This document shows, in pieces, positions 48,954 to 55,338 of a stretch of 56,078 bases of DNA (position 1 is its first letter; the number at the start of each line of letters is the position of its first letter). Made by a program: the position numbers and the translations under genes. This DNA is from Actinomycetota bacterium (GTDB lineage Bacteria; Actinomycetota; Aquicultoria; Aquicultorales; Aquicultoraceae). Where the stretch lies: the NCBI GenBank assembly GCA_014859275.1, contig JACUUO010000003.1, positions 1 to 56,078 of the forward strand. Direction: 5' to 3'. The notes below the pieces were generated by a model, which saw only the letters and a program-made list of their open reading frames with translations, did no database searches and was not told the origin of the DNA.

Positions 48954-48978
48954 GGCGCAAGAACTGAAAAGCTAATAG

Positions 48979-49157
48979 ATCCCAGGTTGCTTAAGGCCAG
49001 GTTTAAATAGGTGGCCGAAGAGCTATGGGAAGCTGGTGAAAGTCCAGCGCGAGCCCGTCACTGTAATCGGGGAGCAAGCTGCGGTATGCCACTGGCGTTG
49101 AACGGCTGGGAAGGTGTGGCAAGCGATGATCCGAGAGCCAGGAGACCTGCCTGGGAT
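48979..49157 (+). ncRNA. cobalamin riboswitch
   Basis: The aptamer has the AdoCbl-riboswitch core: GGGAAGCTGGTGAAAGTCC, AGCCCGTCACTGTAATCGGG and GCCAGGAGACCTGCC (B12 box). The outer P1 helix is ATCCCAGG (48979) with CCTGGGAT (49150). It controls cbiMNQO: with bound cobalamin the terminator at 49219 should form and stop synthesis of the cobalt importer. Confidence 0.95.
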
Positions 49158-49218
49158 TGAAGTATTAAGGCCACTCTCGAGGCCTGGGGTGGATACTAAT
49201 AGTCAAAGTGGCGCTAGT

Positions 49219-49252
49219 AATCCTGGCCAAAGGCGGCCGGGATTTTATTTTC
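49219..49252 (+). terminator. riboswitch-controlled terminator
   Basis: AATCCTGGCC and GGCCGGGATT pair, with one G-U pair, around AAAGGC and run into TTATTTT. It is the expression platform of the cobalamin riboswitch. Confidence 0.85.
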
Positions 49253-49329
49253 TTCGATTGCACTTAAAAGCTCAGCCTAATCAAAAGAGAAGCAAAGGGG
49301 TAGAAAAAAGGGAAGAGTTAAGGGGGATT

Positions 49330-50109
49330 ATGAAAAAATACCTAGTTGCTCTGGCGCTAGCTGCTTTCATAACAGCTATTACACCTACTCCTGCCCATGC
49401 CATGCATATTTCAGAGGGGATACTTCCCCTTCCATGGGCTACCCTTTGGTATCTTGTCGTAATACCGTTTGTTGCTAAAGGCATATCTGATATCAGAAAG
49501 AGGAGTGGGCAAATATCGGCTTTTGTACCATTTACCGGTATGGTTTCTGCAGGGGTGTTCGTAGTATCCGCGATGCCGATCCCCGTTCTTATGGTGGGTA
49601 CGAGTTCACACCCCGCTGGAGTTGGCTTGGCCGCAATACTAATAGGGCCCTTCGCCACGGTTGTAGCTGGGTCAGTATCTCTGTTGATCCAGGCCCTGTT
49701 CCTCGCTCATGGAGGTATAACCACTTGGGGAGCGAATATTCTCTCGATGGGCATAATTGGGGCATTTTCCGGGTATTACGTTTTTAGGGTATTTATGAAA
49801 CTCAAACTCCCGCTAACACTGGCCGCATTTATGGCCGGGCTGATATCCGATTGGGCAACATATACGGCAACCGCATTCGAGCTGGCGCTAGGCCTTAGCG
49901 GCCAAGAGCCGTTCTTTGGATTATTTAAAGCGATATTGGTTGCATTTATTCCAACGCAGCTTCCTATTGGGATACTGGAAGGGTTTGCCGCGGCAGGCTT
50001 TTTTGCCTTTGTCCTGAAGCGAAGGCCAGATATACTAGTGAAGCTGGGGACGGTTCCGGGAGGGCCTCTTCTACAGAAGGATGCGGTTTATGAAAAAGCT
50101 GTTTATTAG
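49330..50109 (+). CDS. cbiM: cobalt ECF transporter S component CbiM
   Basis: 259 residues from ATG 49330 (MKKYLVALALAAF, AAGGGGG upstream); the open extension to 49114 covers the riboswitch and is not coding. After a signal-like helix the mature N-terminus begins MHISEGILP, the invariant cobalt-binding Met-His of CbiM. Some seven helices follow, ending in a positively charged tail. It captures Co2+ for cobalamin synthesis and works with CbiN, CbiQ and CbiO encoded next. Confidence 0.93.
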   Translation: MKKYLVALALAAFITAITPTPAHAMHISEGILPLPWATLWYLVVIPFVAKGISDIRKRSGQISAFVPFTGMVSAGVFVVSAMPIPVLMVGTSSHPAGVGLAAILIGPFATVVAGSVSLLIQALFLAHGGITTWGANILSMGIIGAFSGYYVFRVFMKLKLPLTLAAFMAGLISDWATYTATAFELALGLSGQEPFFGLFKAILVAFIPTQLPIGILEGFAAAGFFAFVLKRRPDILVKLGTVPGGPLLQKDAVYEKAVY

Positions 50110-50452
50110 GGGGAATAAAGGTACTGGGATTATTGGATTGATCGTGATCTTCGTTGCTATCCTCCTGGTAACCTGCGAGGCTACGTTGGGAGCTAACTGG
50201 TCAGGCGTGGATGAGTCTGTCGTTGAGTATTACGCTGAGCAGGCAGGGCGGCCAGCGTGGACGCCCCTTATAAATACCGATCGGGGAGATCTTCTCCTAT
50301 TTATGTTTTTGCTGGCTGGTGCTATAGGCGGCTTTGTCATTGGTTATTACTGGCGAACTCTGTTTAATGATACCAAATGGGTGCGGCGGGAACATGCTTC
50401 AAATGAGAAGATACTTGATGGAAAGGGAAGTAAGGTGGATGAGAGGAAGTAG
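50090..50452 (+). CDS. cbiN: cobalt transport protein CbiN
   Basis: 120 residues. I start at ATG 50090 (MKKLFIRGN), overlapping the end of cbiM, because GAAGGA lies eight nt upstream. Two helices, at about 13-33 and 68-88, flank an external loop with a conserved-looking WSGVDE..E stretch, as in CbiN. It loads cobalt onto CbiM. The stop overlaps the cbiQ start by 14 bp. Confidence 0.88.
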   Translation: MKKLFIRGNKGTGIIGLIVIFVAILLVTCEATLGANWSGVDESVVEYYAEQAGRPAWTPLINTDRGDLLLFMFLLAGAIGGFVIGYYWRTLFNDTKWVRREHASNEKILDGKGSKVDERK

Positions 50453-51224
50453 CATAGAGTTATTCTCTGATTATTTTGCACAGGCATCGAATATTTTTAC
50501 GCTAATCGATGCCCGCGTAAAACTGATTTTTGTACTTGCAGTCCTTGCCCTTGTTCTTCTCGGCGATAAGGTTGGTGTTTCGCTTCTTATAGTGGTTTTA
50601 TGCATCTTTATCCTTCTGCTGATAAGAATTCCCTTTAGAGTGATTTTAGCGAGGATGGCAGGCCCACTTGCGATGGTTAGCGTTATCATTGTATTGCAGG
50701 GCTTATTTTTCGGTAAGACGCCGCTTTATTCATTCGATCATGCTGGATTTTGTATATCCATCTACAAGGAGGGAATTGGCAAGGGGTTACTGATGGCCAG
50801 TCACGTTATGGCGGGAACTTCGCTGGTACTTTTCTTAAGCATAACAACTCCGGTGAATAAATTGCTAGGCGCGCTAAAATATTTTAGGGTACCTAACGGA
50901 TGGCTAGAGATAATGGCATTTACCTATAGGTATATCTTTGTATTTATAGAGGAAGCTCAAAGCATAATGGATGCACAGCGGTTAAGGCTTGGCTACAGGG
51001 GAGTAGCAAACGGATTAAGGTCTTGGGGAACTCTGGTAGGATCGTTATTCACCAGGGTCTACGATCAAGCGAATGCAACGCATACCGCCATGGTCCTCAG
51101 GGGGCATAGCGGAATGCTCCATATTAAAAACCCGGATCGCCTAACGATGAGCGACATAGGCGCCAGTCTGCTGATGGTGGCAGTCTTTTCGCTCTTGTTA
51201 CTGGCGACCTTCTACTGGGGGTAG
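50439..51224 (+). CDS. cbiQ: ECF transporter T component CbiQ
   Basis: 262 residues from ATG 50439 (MRGSSIELFSDYFAQ) with TAAGGTGG upstream; the longer frame back to 50334 overlaps cbiN. Five or six helices. The paired coupling motifs of T components are readable as AQRLRLGYRG (about 178) and VYDQANATHTAMVLRGHSG (about 205). It couples CbiM movement to ATP hydrolysis by CbiO. Confidence 0.9.
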   Translation: MRGSSIELFSDYFAQASNIFTLIDARVKLIFVLAVLALVLLGDKVGVSLLIVVLCIFILLLIRIPFRVILARMAGPLAMVSVIIVLQGLFFGKTPLYSFDHAGFCISIYKEGIGKGLLMASHVMAGTSLVLFLSITTPVNKLLGALKYFRVPNGWLEIMAFTYRYIFVFIEEAQSIMDAQRLRLGYRGVANGLRSWGTLVGSLFTRVYDQANATHTAMVLRGHSGMLHIKNPDRLTMSDIGASLLMVAVFSLLLLATFYWG

Positions 51225-51229
51225 CTTAA

Positions 51230-52099
51230 TTGTCATTCCTTGAGATAAAGGATCTCTCGTACAGGTTCGAGGATGGAACGGAAGCCCTCGATGGGGTAAC
51301 TATAAGTGTAGAGAAGGGTGAGTTTGCCGGCCTTCTGGCATCAAACGGCGGCGGAAAAACAACCCTTCTGAGATCGATAGTAGGGCTTCTTAAATCCAAA
51401 CCGGGGTCGATTCTTATCGATAAAAAACCATTGGATAAGATGGGGCGGACTGGGCTTTCCAGTAAAATCGGACTTGTCTTCCAAAACCCTAGCGATCAAC
51501 TTTTCGCATCAACGGTGGAAGAGGATGTTGAATTCGGGCCTAGAAATCTGGGCTTAAGTGAGGGTGAGATAACAGAGAGAGTTAAAAGTTCACTGGAACT
51601 GGTTGATCTTATGAGCTGCGCAAAGAAGCCGATACACCACCTGAGCTTTGGGCAGCAGAAAAGAGCATGTATTGCGGGCGTATTGGCGATGAGACCCGAG
51701 ATATTATTGCTTGACGAACCAACCGCCGGGCTGGATCCGAAGAGCGAATCTAAATTGCTGTACGTTCTAGGAAGGCTTAATAAAGAAGCGGGCATCACAA
51801 TAATCATAGCGACGCATATGGTCGATCTCATGCCCTTATTTGTCGACCGAATTTATGTATTAAAGGAAGGTAAACTCGCAATTAAGGGAACTCCCGAGGT
51901 GGTATTCTCCAGCACACAGGTCATGGAGGGGGTAGATTTAAGGCTTCCTTATATAACCCACCTGATCGAAGAGCTTAAGCACAAGGATCACTTGCCCCTC
52001 GATGAGTTACCCCTTACAATCAAGGATGCTAGGAGTAAGTTGGTCTCACTCATACCACAGAATATTCTTACCGTTAAGGAAAGCATCCGATTAAGTTAG
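51230..52099 (+). CDS. cbiO: ECF transporter ATPase CbiO
   Basis: 289 residues, TTG 51230 five bp after cbiQ. Walker A reads ASNGGGKTT (about 38-46), where the leading Gly of GxxGxGK(S/T) is Ala; Q-loop VFQNPSDQLFA, signature LSFGQQKRACIAGVLA, Walker B ILLLDEPTAGLD, H-loop IIATHMVDL. Q-loop NPxxQ(L/I)F is typical of ECF ATPases. Apart from the A substitution all catalytic residues are present, so it should be active. Confidence 0.92.
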   Translation: MSFLEIKDLSYRFEDGTEALDGVTISVEKGEFAGLLASNGGGKTTLLRSIVGLLKSKPGSILIDKKPLDKMGRTGLSSKIGLVFQNPSDQLFASTVEEDVEFGPRNLGLSEGEITERVKSSLELVDLMSCAKKPIHHLSFGQQKRACIAGVLAMRPEILLLDEPTAGLDPKSESKLLYVLGRLNKEAGITIIIATHMVDLMPLFVDRIYVLKEGKLAIKGTPEVVFSSTQVMEGVDLRLPYITHLIEELKHKDHLPLDELPLTIKDARSKLVSLIPQNILTVKESIRLS

Positions 52100-52229: not shown

Positions 52230-52643
52230 TTGAGGCAAGAAAAAGCGGGTTATCGGAGATGGATGAGCATTTTGGTGCTCCTGCTCCTGGTAGCACTTAC
52301 AAGCTTTGTGGTTGCTGGATGCTCTGGAGGCGGCAAGGAGGAGGGTACAACGACTGGGAAAGCCGAATCGGCTAGCGGAGAGCATGCAGAGCACGCAGAA
52401 GAGAGCGAAGAAGAGACCAATAATCCAGGGCTGCTGTATACGAATAACTGTGGTGCTTGCCATGGACATGATGGCAGTGGTGTAGTCGGCCCTGCAATAA
52501 AAGGAACCGCTCTTACTATTGCTCAAATTGAAGAAAAGATAAACAACGGCAGTGGGAACCAAATGCCAAAATTTAAGGGTGGCGAGCTAAAAGAAGAACA
52601 GATCAAGTTGATAGCAAATTACGTGAAGGATGAGTTGAAATAG
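52230..52643 (+). CDS. lipoprotein cytochrome c (class I)
   Basis: 137 residues, TTG 52230 with GAGGAGGG upstream. A lipoprotein signal ends at Cys31 (VVAGC). After a Gly/Ser/Glu/His-rich linker comes a cytochrome-c domain with haem motif CGACH (74-78) and axial Met in GNQMPKF. It is a membrane-anchored electron carrier on the outer face, similar to the c551/c550 type of Gram-positive bacteria. Monocistronic. Confidence 0.92.
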   Translation: MRQEKAGYRRWMSILVLLLLVALTSFVVAGCSGGGKEEGTTTGKAESASGEHAEHAEESEEETNNPGLLYTNNCGACHGHDGSGVVGPAIKGTALTIAQIEEKINNGSGNQMPKFKGGELKEEQIKLIANYVKDELK

Positions 52644-53779: not shown

Positions 53780-53810
53780 TTGACATTTATACCCCCCTGG
53801 GGTATAAATG
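53780..53810 (+). promoter_or_regulatory. thioredoxin promoter with CsoR/CstR-type operator
   Basis: TTGACA (53780-53785), exactly 17 bp, TATAAA (53803-53808). A perfect inverted repeat, CATTTATACCCC-CCT-GGGGTATAAATG (53784-53810), spans the spacer. C-runs and G-runs flanked by AT-rich arms are the operator form of the CsoR/RcnR/CstR family, whose member is encoded at 55054. Repressor binding would block both boxes. Confidence 0.8.
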
Positions 53811-53832: not shown

Positions 53833-54144
53833 ATGGCTAATAACATAACCGATTCTCAGTTTGATTCTGAGGTGTTGAGGTCAGATATGCCGGTGATCGT
53901 AGACTTTTGGGCTCCTTGGTGTGGCCCTTGCAGAATCATTGCGCCCCGGCTTGATGAGATTGAAAAAGAGTACGATGGCAAAGTAAGGGTATTGAAACTT
54001 AATGTCGATGAGGAACGCCAGTGGGCGAGCAAATTTGGAATAATGAGTATTCCAACCATTATGCTGTTTAAGGATGGTCAAGTTGTGGGCCAGATTATCG
54101 GAGCTGTGCCAAAAGAAGAGATCATTCGCCAATTTAAACTATAA
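53833..54144 (+). CDS. trxA: thioredoxin
   Basis: 103 residues; ATG 53833 follows AGGAG by nine nt, a TTG two codons earlier is also open. [14 protein letters not shown] carries the standard CGPC redox site and [11 protein letters not shown] the cis-proline loop. Cytoplasmic disulfide reductase. It starts a thiol-related cluster and is preceded by a promoter overlapping a CsoR-family operator. Confidence 0.93.
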
Positions 54145-54233: not shown

Positions 54234-54449
54234 ATGCCAACTTATCAATTCGTTTGTAATGATTGCGGCAGGGATTACGAATTTTTCCTGACAAGAATGT
54301 TGCGTGATGGTGATGAGCTATGTCCGGACTGTGGCAGCACCAATGTGAGGCGGGCATACCGCGACTTTTTTGGCTATAGGGTAAGTCACTCTAGTGGCGA
54401 ATCTTCCGGTGGATATTCCAGCGGGAGCAGTTGCAGTAGCAGTGGCTGA
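54234..54449 (+). CDS. FmdB-type zinc ribbon protein
   Basis: 71 residues, ATG 54234 with TTGGAGGG upstream. MPTYQFVCNDCGRDYEFF and CPDCGSTNVRRAY give the two CxxC pairs of the FmdB/CxxC_CxxC_SSSS family; the Ser/Gly-rich tail (SSGGYSSGSSCSSSG) is also typical. Small regulatory or metal-binding protein of unknown role. Confidence 0.9.
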   Translation: MPTYQFVCNDCGRDYEFFLTRMLRDGDELCPDCGSTNVRRAYRDFFGYRVSHSSGESSGGYSSGSSCSSSG

Positions 54450-54556
54450 GGGTTTTAGAAGTACTCGGGTCGGCGGCCCGAGTTACAAGAGTTGCCCGCA
54501 AGCGGCGGCCCGGGAAGGCAAAGTTCGCCTTATATCGTGTTATACTTTGCATTAAT

Positions 54557-54574: not shown

Positions 54575-54591
54575 TTATTGATTGGAAGGAG

Positions 54592-55032
54592 ATGACGTTG
54601 CCCGGCAGAAGGCATATATTGAAAATCCTGGCTATTATTGCATTAATCGGTCTTGTTCTGGTGGTGGTGGTTGGATGTCAAAAGGGCCAGACCCAGAGCA
54701 TAAATGATCAGGCCACAAATAACCAGAATGGCCAACAAATGCAGGTTGCTGGGCCCAGGGTACTATATTTTTCATCGGAGTACTGATCGTATTGCAGAAA
54801 TATGAAGCCGCTAGTTGAGCAGGCAAAAAATGAGTATGCTGGTAAGATAACGTTCGAGGTTTATGACCTCGGGAATCAAGATCAAGATAGTGTAAATGTC
54901 GTCGATCAATACGGTGTTGGACCGATTCCGACGCTTATTTTTATCGATAAGGATGGATTGATTGCGAATAAGGTGGTTGGCGAAGTTCCCAAAGATGTTA
55001 TCGATAAAAACGTGAAAAATATTATTGAATAG
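54592..55032 (+). CDS. selenocysteine-containing thioredoxin-like lipoprotein (UxxC)
   Basis: 146 residues if TGA 54784-54786 is selenocysteine. A lipoprotein signal ends at Cys29 (VVVGC), then a Asn/Gln-rich linker, then a thioredoxin fold: VLYFSSEY-U65-SY-C68-RNMKPLVEQ, and later VGPIPTLIFID (cis-Pro) and VVGEVPKDVI. TGA replaces the first Cys of CxxC; the frame is intact after it, and a SECIS-like hairpin follows. TTG 54598 is a better-spaced start (AAGGAG, six nt) than ATG 54592. A downstream ATG 54802 would give a useless fragment. It likely reduces or senses thiols outside the membrane. Confidence 0.85.
54807..54824 (+). promoter_or_regulatory. SECIS-like hairpin of the thioredoxin-like gene
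   Basis: GCCGCU pairs with AGC-A-GGC (one bulged A) around the loop AGUUG, which begins 26 nt after UGA and has G as second loop base. This meets the bacterial SECIS rules, and the spacing is the same as in the flavoprotein gene. Confidence 0.65.
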
Positions 55033-55053: not shown

Positions 55054-55338
55054 ATGTACGATCGCGATGAGGAGGCCAAGCGGATTGTCACGCGGCTTAA
55101 AAGGCTTGAGGGGCAGCTAAGAGGCCTTCAGCGGTTAGTTGAGGCGGGCGAGGATTGCGAGAGCGTGCTAACGCAGTTCGCTGCTGCAAAAGGCGCTTTC
55201 CAGCGCGTCGGTGAGATTATTCTTGCCAGCGTGATACGCGACTGCATAGCAAAGGAGAGCTTGGGTGATAAAGCGCCTGAAGAAAGCATCGAATCAGCCT
55301 TGGCTCTTTTCGAGCAATATGTAAGGCATCTTCAGTAG
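55054..55338 (+). CDS. CsoR/CstR-family transcriptional repressor
   Basis: 94 residues, ATG 55054 with GGGGG upstream. All-helical DUF156 fold: RIVTRLKRLEGQLRGLQRLVEAGEDCESVLTQFAAAKGAF. The two cysteines (DC at about 30, RDC at about 66) are kept, but the His of copper sensors (HxxxC) is replaced, here SVIRDC. This matches CstR, the persulfide sensor, rather than copper-sensing CsoR. GGGGGTAT just upstream of its start resembles half of the operator at 53784, so autoregulation is possible. It ends the thiol cluster. Confidence 0.87.
   Translation: MYDRDEEAKRIVTRLKRLEGQLRGLQRLVEAGEDCESVLTQFAAAKGAFQRVGEIILASVIRDCIAKESLGDKAPEESIESALALFEQYVRHLQ

Follow-up and report, generated by a model that had tools for sequence, protein, structure and literature searches.

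The window, a stretch of 56,078 nucleotides of an Actinomycetota contig (JACUUO010000003.1), carries the following genes on its forward strand: trx (53833–54144), encoding a cytoplasmic thioredoxin of the Cys form with a CGPC motif (131.8 bits to TIGR01068, above the cut-off); fmdB (54234–54449), encoding an FmdB-family zinc ribbon protein (PF09723; TIGR02605 above the cut-off) and ending in the stop codon TGA; the selenothioredoxin gene (54598–55032), encoding an anchor with a lipobox, a linker and a thioredoxin domain with a UxxC motif; and a CsoR/CstR-family repressor gene (55054–55338; PF02583, with Cys35 and Cys64), which begins 21 nt 3′ of the selenoprotein stop. Named relatives place the family of the source organism with Candidatus Aquicultor (Actinomycetota, class Aquicultoria). 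The usual gene order in this family is cbiMQO, lipoprotein cytochrome c, flavin reductase, trx, fmdB, selenothioredoxin, CsoR-family regulator, and tRNA-Gly, -Cys and -Val; the flavin reductase was unmatched at three family loci (L062, L063 and L067). The sequence-only reading of this DNA had named a thioredoxin and a CstR-type sensor as the neighbours, and both are present in a cluster conserved in the family. Further upstream, a cobalamin riboswitch (48967–49168) lies 5′ of the cobalt-uptake genes for CbiM, CbiQ and an ABC ATPase (49114–52099), a block that several genomes of the family keep next to the selenothioredoxin cluster. A lipoprotein-type monohaem cytochrome c (52230–52643; CxxCH, lipobox AGC) is kept upstream of trx in the family, and is a possible client or partner.

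Translation of the open reading frames gave a frame at 54592–55032 interrupted solely by the TGA at 54784–54786, the proposed selenocysteine codon at the first position of U-S-Y-C. A single thioredoxin frame split only by TGA at the start of a UxxC motif, as first proposed, is thus what was found, and U-S-Y-C aligns to the CxxC of the Pfam thioredoxin model PF00085 (49.2 bits). The gene had been given the bounds of this frame, which hold except for the start at ATG 54592. A putative ribosome-binding site, GGAAGGAG (54584–54591, forward strand), was recognized by its sequence, and relatives share the arrangement. Because ATG 54592 abuts GGAAGGAG with no spacer, while TTG 54598 lies 6 nt 3′ of it and is common in relatives (at the corresponding position, TTG in eight of the nine other family members and ATG in one), TTG 54598 is the more likely start; counted from it, the proposed Sec is residue 63.

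Homologues of the selenothioredoxin were sought in 99 genomes. The TGA at the selenocysteine codon was kept in 10 of the 11 family genomes, that is, in all ten with a close homologue; the eleventh genome, 77 % complete, had no close selenothioredoxin homologue. The nine other family genomes share the TGA at 34–51 % protein identity, with intact frames, and five more distant homologues (L030, L032, L037, L043 and L045), spread over four other families within the order, class or phylum, have TGA at exactly the codon of the window. Inspection of this position base by base in 15 homologues showed TGA in all 15, and the internal stops among the matches listed were 34 TGA, one TAG and no TAA. A homologous lipoprotein of the Cys form, which the sequence-only reading had proposed to look for, was also found (L029). 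The in-frame UGA, which stands where a redox-active Cys would be, is conserved across species and has Cys counterparts. The sequence downstream of the TGA is under purifying selection with strong constraint, dN/dS 3′ of the UGA being 0.09–0.14 for close pairs.

A bacterial SECIS-type hairpin, GCCGCU-AGUUG-AGCAGGC, follows the UGA at 54807–54824 (forward strand), with the loop AGUUG, a 6 bp stem, one bulge and 26 nt from the UGA to the loop. The folding energy was −11.7 kcal/mol for a stretch of 42–52 nt and −7.1 kcal/mol for the 26-nt stretch alone. The published bSECIS model has a loop of 3–9 nt, a stem of 4–16 bp, a G in the first two loop positions, a distance of 16–37 nt from the UGA and an MFE of at most −7.5 kcal/mol (PMC13188914), and the window hairpin falls within it in loop, stem, spacing and the MFE of the 42–52 nt stretch. 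The hairpin recurs at the equivalent place in all 15 Sec genes, with the stem starting approximately 23 nt from the U of UGA; most Cys homologues have it weakly or not at all. On the alignment, 92 % of the cells of the six-pair stem were paired, compared with 19–46 % in slid controls, and two stem pairs showed compensatory changes on both sides. Against a null in which the protein was kept and synonymous codons were resampled, the mean z of the hairpin region was −1.99 for Sec genes and −0.28 for Cys homologues (Mann–Whitney p = 0.0002, the sequences not being independent). The SECIS-like hairpin after the TGA, first noticed from the sequence alone, is upheld by fold, codon-preserving null and covariation.

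The source genome (2.83 Mb, 98 % complete, 299 contigs) encodes the pathway for selenocysteine biosynthesis and insertion. The genome search for this machinery, suggested by the sequence-only reading, located selD, selA, selB and tRNA-Sec complete in one cluster on contig C138, with matches of 615 bits for selA and 412 bits for selB. The selD of this genome (L070, contig C138, 7341–8258) has an in-frame TGA of its own and is thus also a selenoprotein gene. Among the 99 genomes, selA was present in 26 of the 28 with an in-frame-TGA homologue and in 45 of the 71 others (p = 0.002, a value that ignores kinship). Two MAGs run counter to this: G007 (97 % complete) and G066 (91 % complete) have a TGA homologue and no detectable selA or above-cut-off selB; because both assemblies are incomplete, the Sec genes may lie on a missing contig. 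For G007, either contigs are missing or the genome shows an early loss of selenocysteine use; its copy (L024) has the TGA and is without the lipobox Cys.

In the read-through protein an N-terminal hydrophobic helix, which terminates in the lipobox VVGC, is joined by a linker to a thioredoxin domain, as had been proposed for the lipoprotein signal and linker before the thioredoxin part. The lipobox Cys, identified by inspection and predicted to be lipidated, occurs in 13 of 15 aligned homologues, the exceptions being L024 and L032. In the AlphaFold2 model the linker was of low confidence and the block-mean pLDDT over the thioredoxin domain was 86–98, with U just before helix 1. The thioredoxin fold is accompanied by (U/C)xxC at the N-terminal end of helix 1 and by a cis-Pro (IPT motif, invariant P111), and the best PDB fold matches were thioredoxins, with ResA (4nmu) third. 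The score to PF13098 (39.6 bits) was below that to PF00085, that to the thioredoxin equivalog TIGR01068 was 43 bits against a cut-off of 96.8, and no NCBIfam selenoprotein model scored the protein above its own cut-off. An N-terminally anchored thioredoxin, mostly of the lipobox type, is well supported.

Of all members of the cluster, the regulator is the best conserved (83–94 % identical). In all nine sequences it has Cys35, Cys64 and a V or T four residues before Cys64. A Cys pair is the CstR pattern and Cys-His-Cys the CsoR pattern, and the His four residues before the second Cys is a Cu(I) ligand in CsoR and a sensing-site residue in FrmR. The regulator, a CsoR/DUF156 protein, thus has the Cys pair but lacks a His in the metal site. 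Its best PDB sequence match was 7mq3/7mq1, labelled CsoR, which we take to be the CstR of S. pneumoniae; a literature search yielded no confirmation of that identity. This residue pattern, together with knowledge of the family, suggests sulfide or persulfide as its signal.

Operators of the CsoR family are as a rule pseudopalindromic and contain a run of G or C. A candidate operator of this type, the 21-bp palindrome TTATACCCCCCTGGGGTATAA (53787–53807), lies between the −35 and −10 elements of the predicted trx promoter (53780–53808, forward strand), which consists of TTGACA (53780–53785), a 17 nt spacer and TATAAA (53803–53808). Both the palindrome and TTGACA are conserved in 10 of 10 family genomes. 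The operator is separated from the trx start codon by 25 bp, and a pattern search found its core, ATACCCN5GGGTAT, at a single site in the 2.83 Mb genome. In a genome of another family, G011, an operator-like palindrome with TTGACA lies approximately 190 bp upstream of a selenothioredoxin frame (L069, 5783–5808); a CsoR homologue was sought in that genome and not found, despite the operator-like site.

Upstream of the selenoprotein gene, in the intergenic region after fmdB, we identified an extended −10-like motif, TGTTATACT (54538–54546, forward strand), which is conserved in the family as TGNTATACT in nine of ten genomes and as TGTTATATT in the tenth. G+C-rich hairpins at 54455–54520, after fmdB, recur in all family genomes and are perhaps terminators or attenuators between two transcription units. 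The gap between the selenoprotein and regulator genes was 17–38 nt in the eight family genomes measured. A single operon from the trx promoter was considered and rejected as the simple reading, since in every genome fmdB is followed by hairpins and an extended −10 motif before the selenoprotein gene starts. The best reading of the sequences is that of two transcription units, trx–fmdB under the operator and selenothioredoxin–regulator from a promoter of its own. Because the operator was found only at the trx promoter and the selenoprotein–regulator pair has its own −10 motif, the sensor is predicted to control trx–fmdB. The source genome also has a second CsoR paralogue, on contig C207, which could bind the operator in place of the cluster regulator.

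Taken together, we consider the gene to encode a true selenoprotein, a UxxC thioredoxin held, usually through a lipobox Cys, on the outer face of the cytoplasmic membrane, with a probability of approximately 0.9. We infer a scheme that runs from Sec insertion and lipidation through the electron donor and substrate to repressor–operator binding and the sulfur signal. SelB and tRNA-Sec would decode the UGA at 54784, aided by the hairpin at 54807–54824, and selenocysteine would be the attacking residue of the anchored thioredoxin, most likely an extracytoplasmic disulfide, polysulfide or persulfide reductase. Disulfide reduction is the activity of thioredoxin-type UxxC proteins, which need an electron relay when they act outside the membrane. 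Because of this need, and because the genome encodes two CcdA-like DsbD_TM proteins (contigs C292 and C66), we propose that electrons would pass from the cytoplasmic thioredoxin through a CcdA/DsbD-type protein to the selenothioredoxin, and from there to an extracytoplasmic disulfide, polysulfide or apocytochrome. The CcdA-like protein on C66 adjoins a multihaem cytochrome c. That on C292 (L073) lies in an arsenic-type cluster with an ArsR-like regulator, LMWPc, an SBF transporter, an ArsP permease and a Cys thioredoxin that is a homologue of the selenothioredoxin. The selenothioredoxin would be co-transcribed with the CstR-type repressor, which, with its Cys pair reduced, would occupy the operator in the trx–fmdB promoter until released by reactive sulfur or an oxidant, and would thereby match the supply of cytoplasmic thioredoxin to reactive sulfur. 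This sulfur-response part has, in our estimate, slightly less than an even chance of being correct.

Two alternatives deny that the UGA encodes selenocysteine. The TGA is one base from TGC and TGT and the assembly that includes the contig is fragmented (299 contigs), so that the codon could be an assembly error, or else a real stop in a decayed or truncated thioredoxin pseudogene. Misassembly of TGC or TGT at 54784–54786 is, however, opposed by the same TGA in nine other family genomes, at the identities given above, and in more distant homologues; decay after the stop, which the sequence-only reading had set as grounds for refutation, was not seen in relatives, the frames being intact with dN/dS near 0.1; and the Sec machinery is present. 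We therefore regard this explanation as very improbable. Still less credible is an altered code that assigns UGA to tryptophan or some other ordinary amino acid. The frame is indeed open under TGA=W, but the UGA stands at the catalytic Cys of CxxC, the neighbouring fmdB ends in TGA, and tRNA-Sec and SelB are present.

An alternative of greater weight accepts the selenoprotein and questions its link to sulfide: the selenothioredoxin would be a reductase dedicated to apocytochrome c or to disulfides in general (ResA/CcmG/CcsX-like), with the nearby lipoprotein cytochrome c as its client, and the repressor would sense copper, another metal or aldehyde. The lipoprotein cytochrome c (CxxCH) conserved upstream in the family, ResA among the best fold matches and FrmR as the best NCBIfam match of the regulator (53.7 bits, below the cut-off) all favour it. 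On the other side, ResB, sought in the genome to test a role in cytochrome c maturation, was absent, and the regulator lacks the His before Cys64 that serves as the Cu(I) ligand of CsoR and in sensing by FrmR. We consider this alternative unlikely, though by no means negligible.

The sequence-only reading had proposed a Sec-dependent thiol or sulfide response at the cell surface. Its elements of Sec decoding, an anchored thioredoxin and a CstR-type neighbour stand, but the predicted operator lies at trx and the selenoprotein gene has a −10 motif of its own; such a response is a plausible interpretation of the sequences. More tentatively, and with the odds against it, the selenothioredoxin and CstR-type sensor on one transcript may make up a response to reactive sulfur shared by the whole family in Aquicultor-type Actinomycetota, in which the sensor adjusts the feeding cytoplasmic thioredoxin. 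If so, the selenium supply would set polysulfide or disulfide reduction at the surface, a selenium-dependent arm of sulfide homeostasis that was not described in the literature searched. A connection of selenium use with a CstR-type switch for reactive sulfur can be tested directly at this locus. The UxxC selenoproteins also gain an anchored, extracytoplasmic thioredoxin, encoded in uncultured Actinomycetota by a gene that the standard code breaks at the UGA and so hides. Literature searches on Aquicultor selenoproteins and on extracytoplasmic selenothioredoxins returned nothing specific, and the text of a 2026 review on the selenoproteins of prokaryotes makes no mention of Actinomycetota by name (PMC13188914).

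Among known systems, the selenoprotein thioredoxin (PF00085, UxxC) is listed as experimentally verified and the thiol:disulfide interchange selenoprotein (PF13098, UxxC) as predicted (PMC13188914, Table 1). With the former the window protein shares the fold, a Sec that takes the place of the first Cys of CxxC, and a bacterial SECIS within the coding region, but it has an N-terminal membrane anchor or lipobox and a linker, which suggest an extracytoplasmic location, and it reaches just approximately 49 bits to Pfam thioredoxin and stays below the TIGR01068 cut-off. With the latter it shares UxxC, a likely function as an exported disulfide reductase and a match to PF13098; the two are set apart by Pfam scores, PF00085 scoring higher in the window protein. 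SaoT, TsoB and TsoX (NF040730, NF045694 and NF045809) are likewise thioredoxin-like with Sec near the active site, but the window protein scored 18 against a cut-off of 65 bits for NF040730 and 26.5 against 805 for NF045694, and had no match to NF045809 at E 0.01. ResA, StoA and CcmG are also anchored extracytoplasmic proteins of thioredoxin fold, from which the window protein differs in Sec for Cys, in a genome without ResB and in scores below the curated cut-offs. The regulator resembles the persulfide-sensing repressor CstR of S. aureus and E. faecalis and YrkD of B. licheniformis in the Cys pair, the lack of a metal-ligand His and a thioredoxin gene in the cluster, which for YrkD, the CstR of B. 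licheniformis, is ydfQ (PMC9918477); unlike in those systems, no rhodanese, SQR or persulfide dioxygenase was seen adjoining the window regulator. UxxC thioredoxin selenoproteins are thus already known, and what is new is the anchored extracytoplasmic form and its fixed gene cluster: the selenothioredoxin is no new category, but an anchored variant in a fixed genomic setting.
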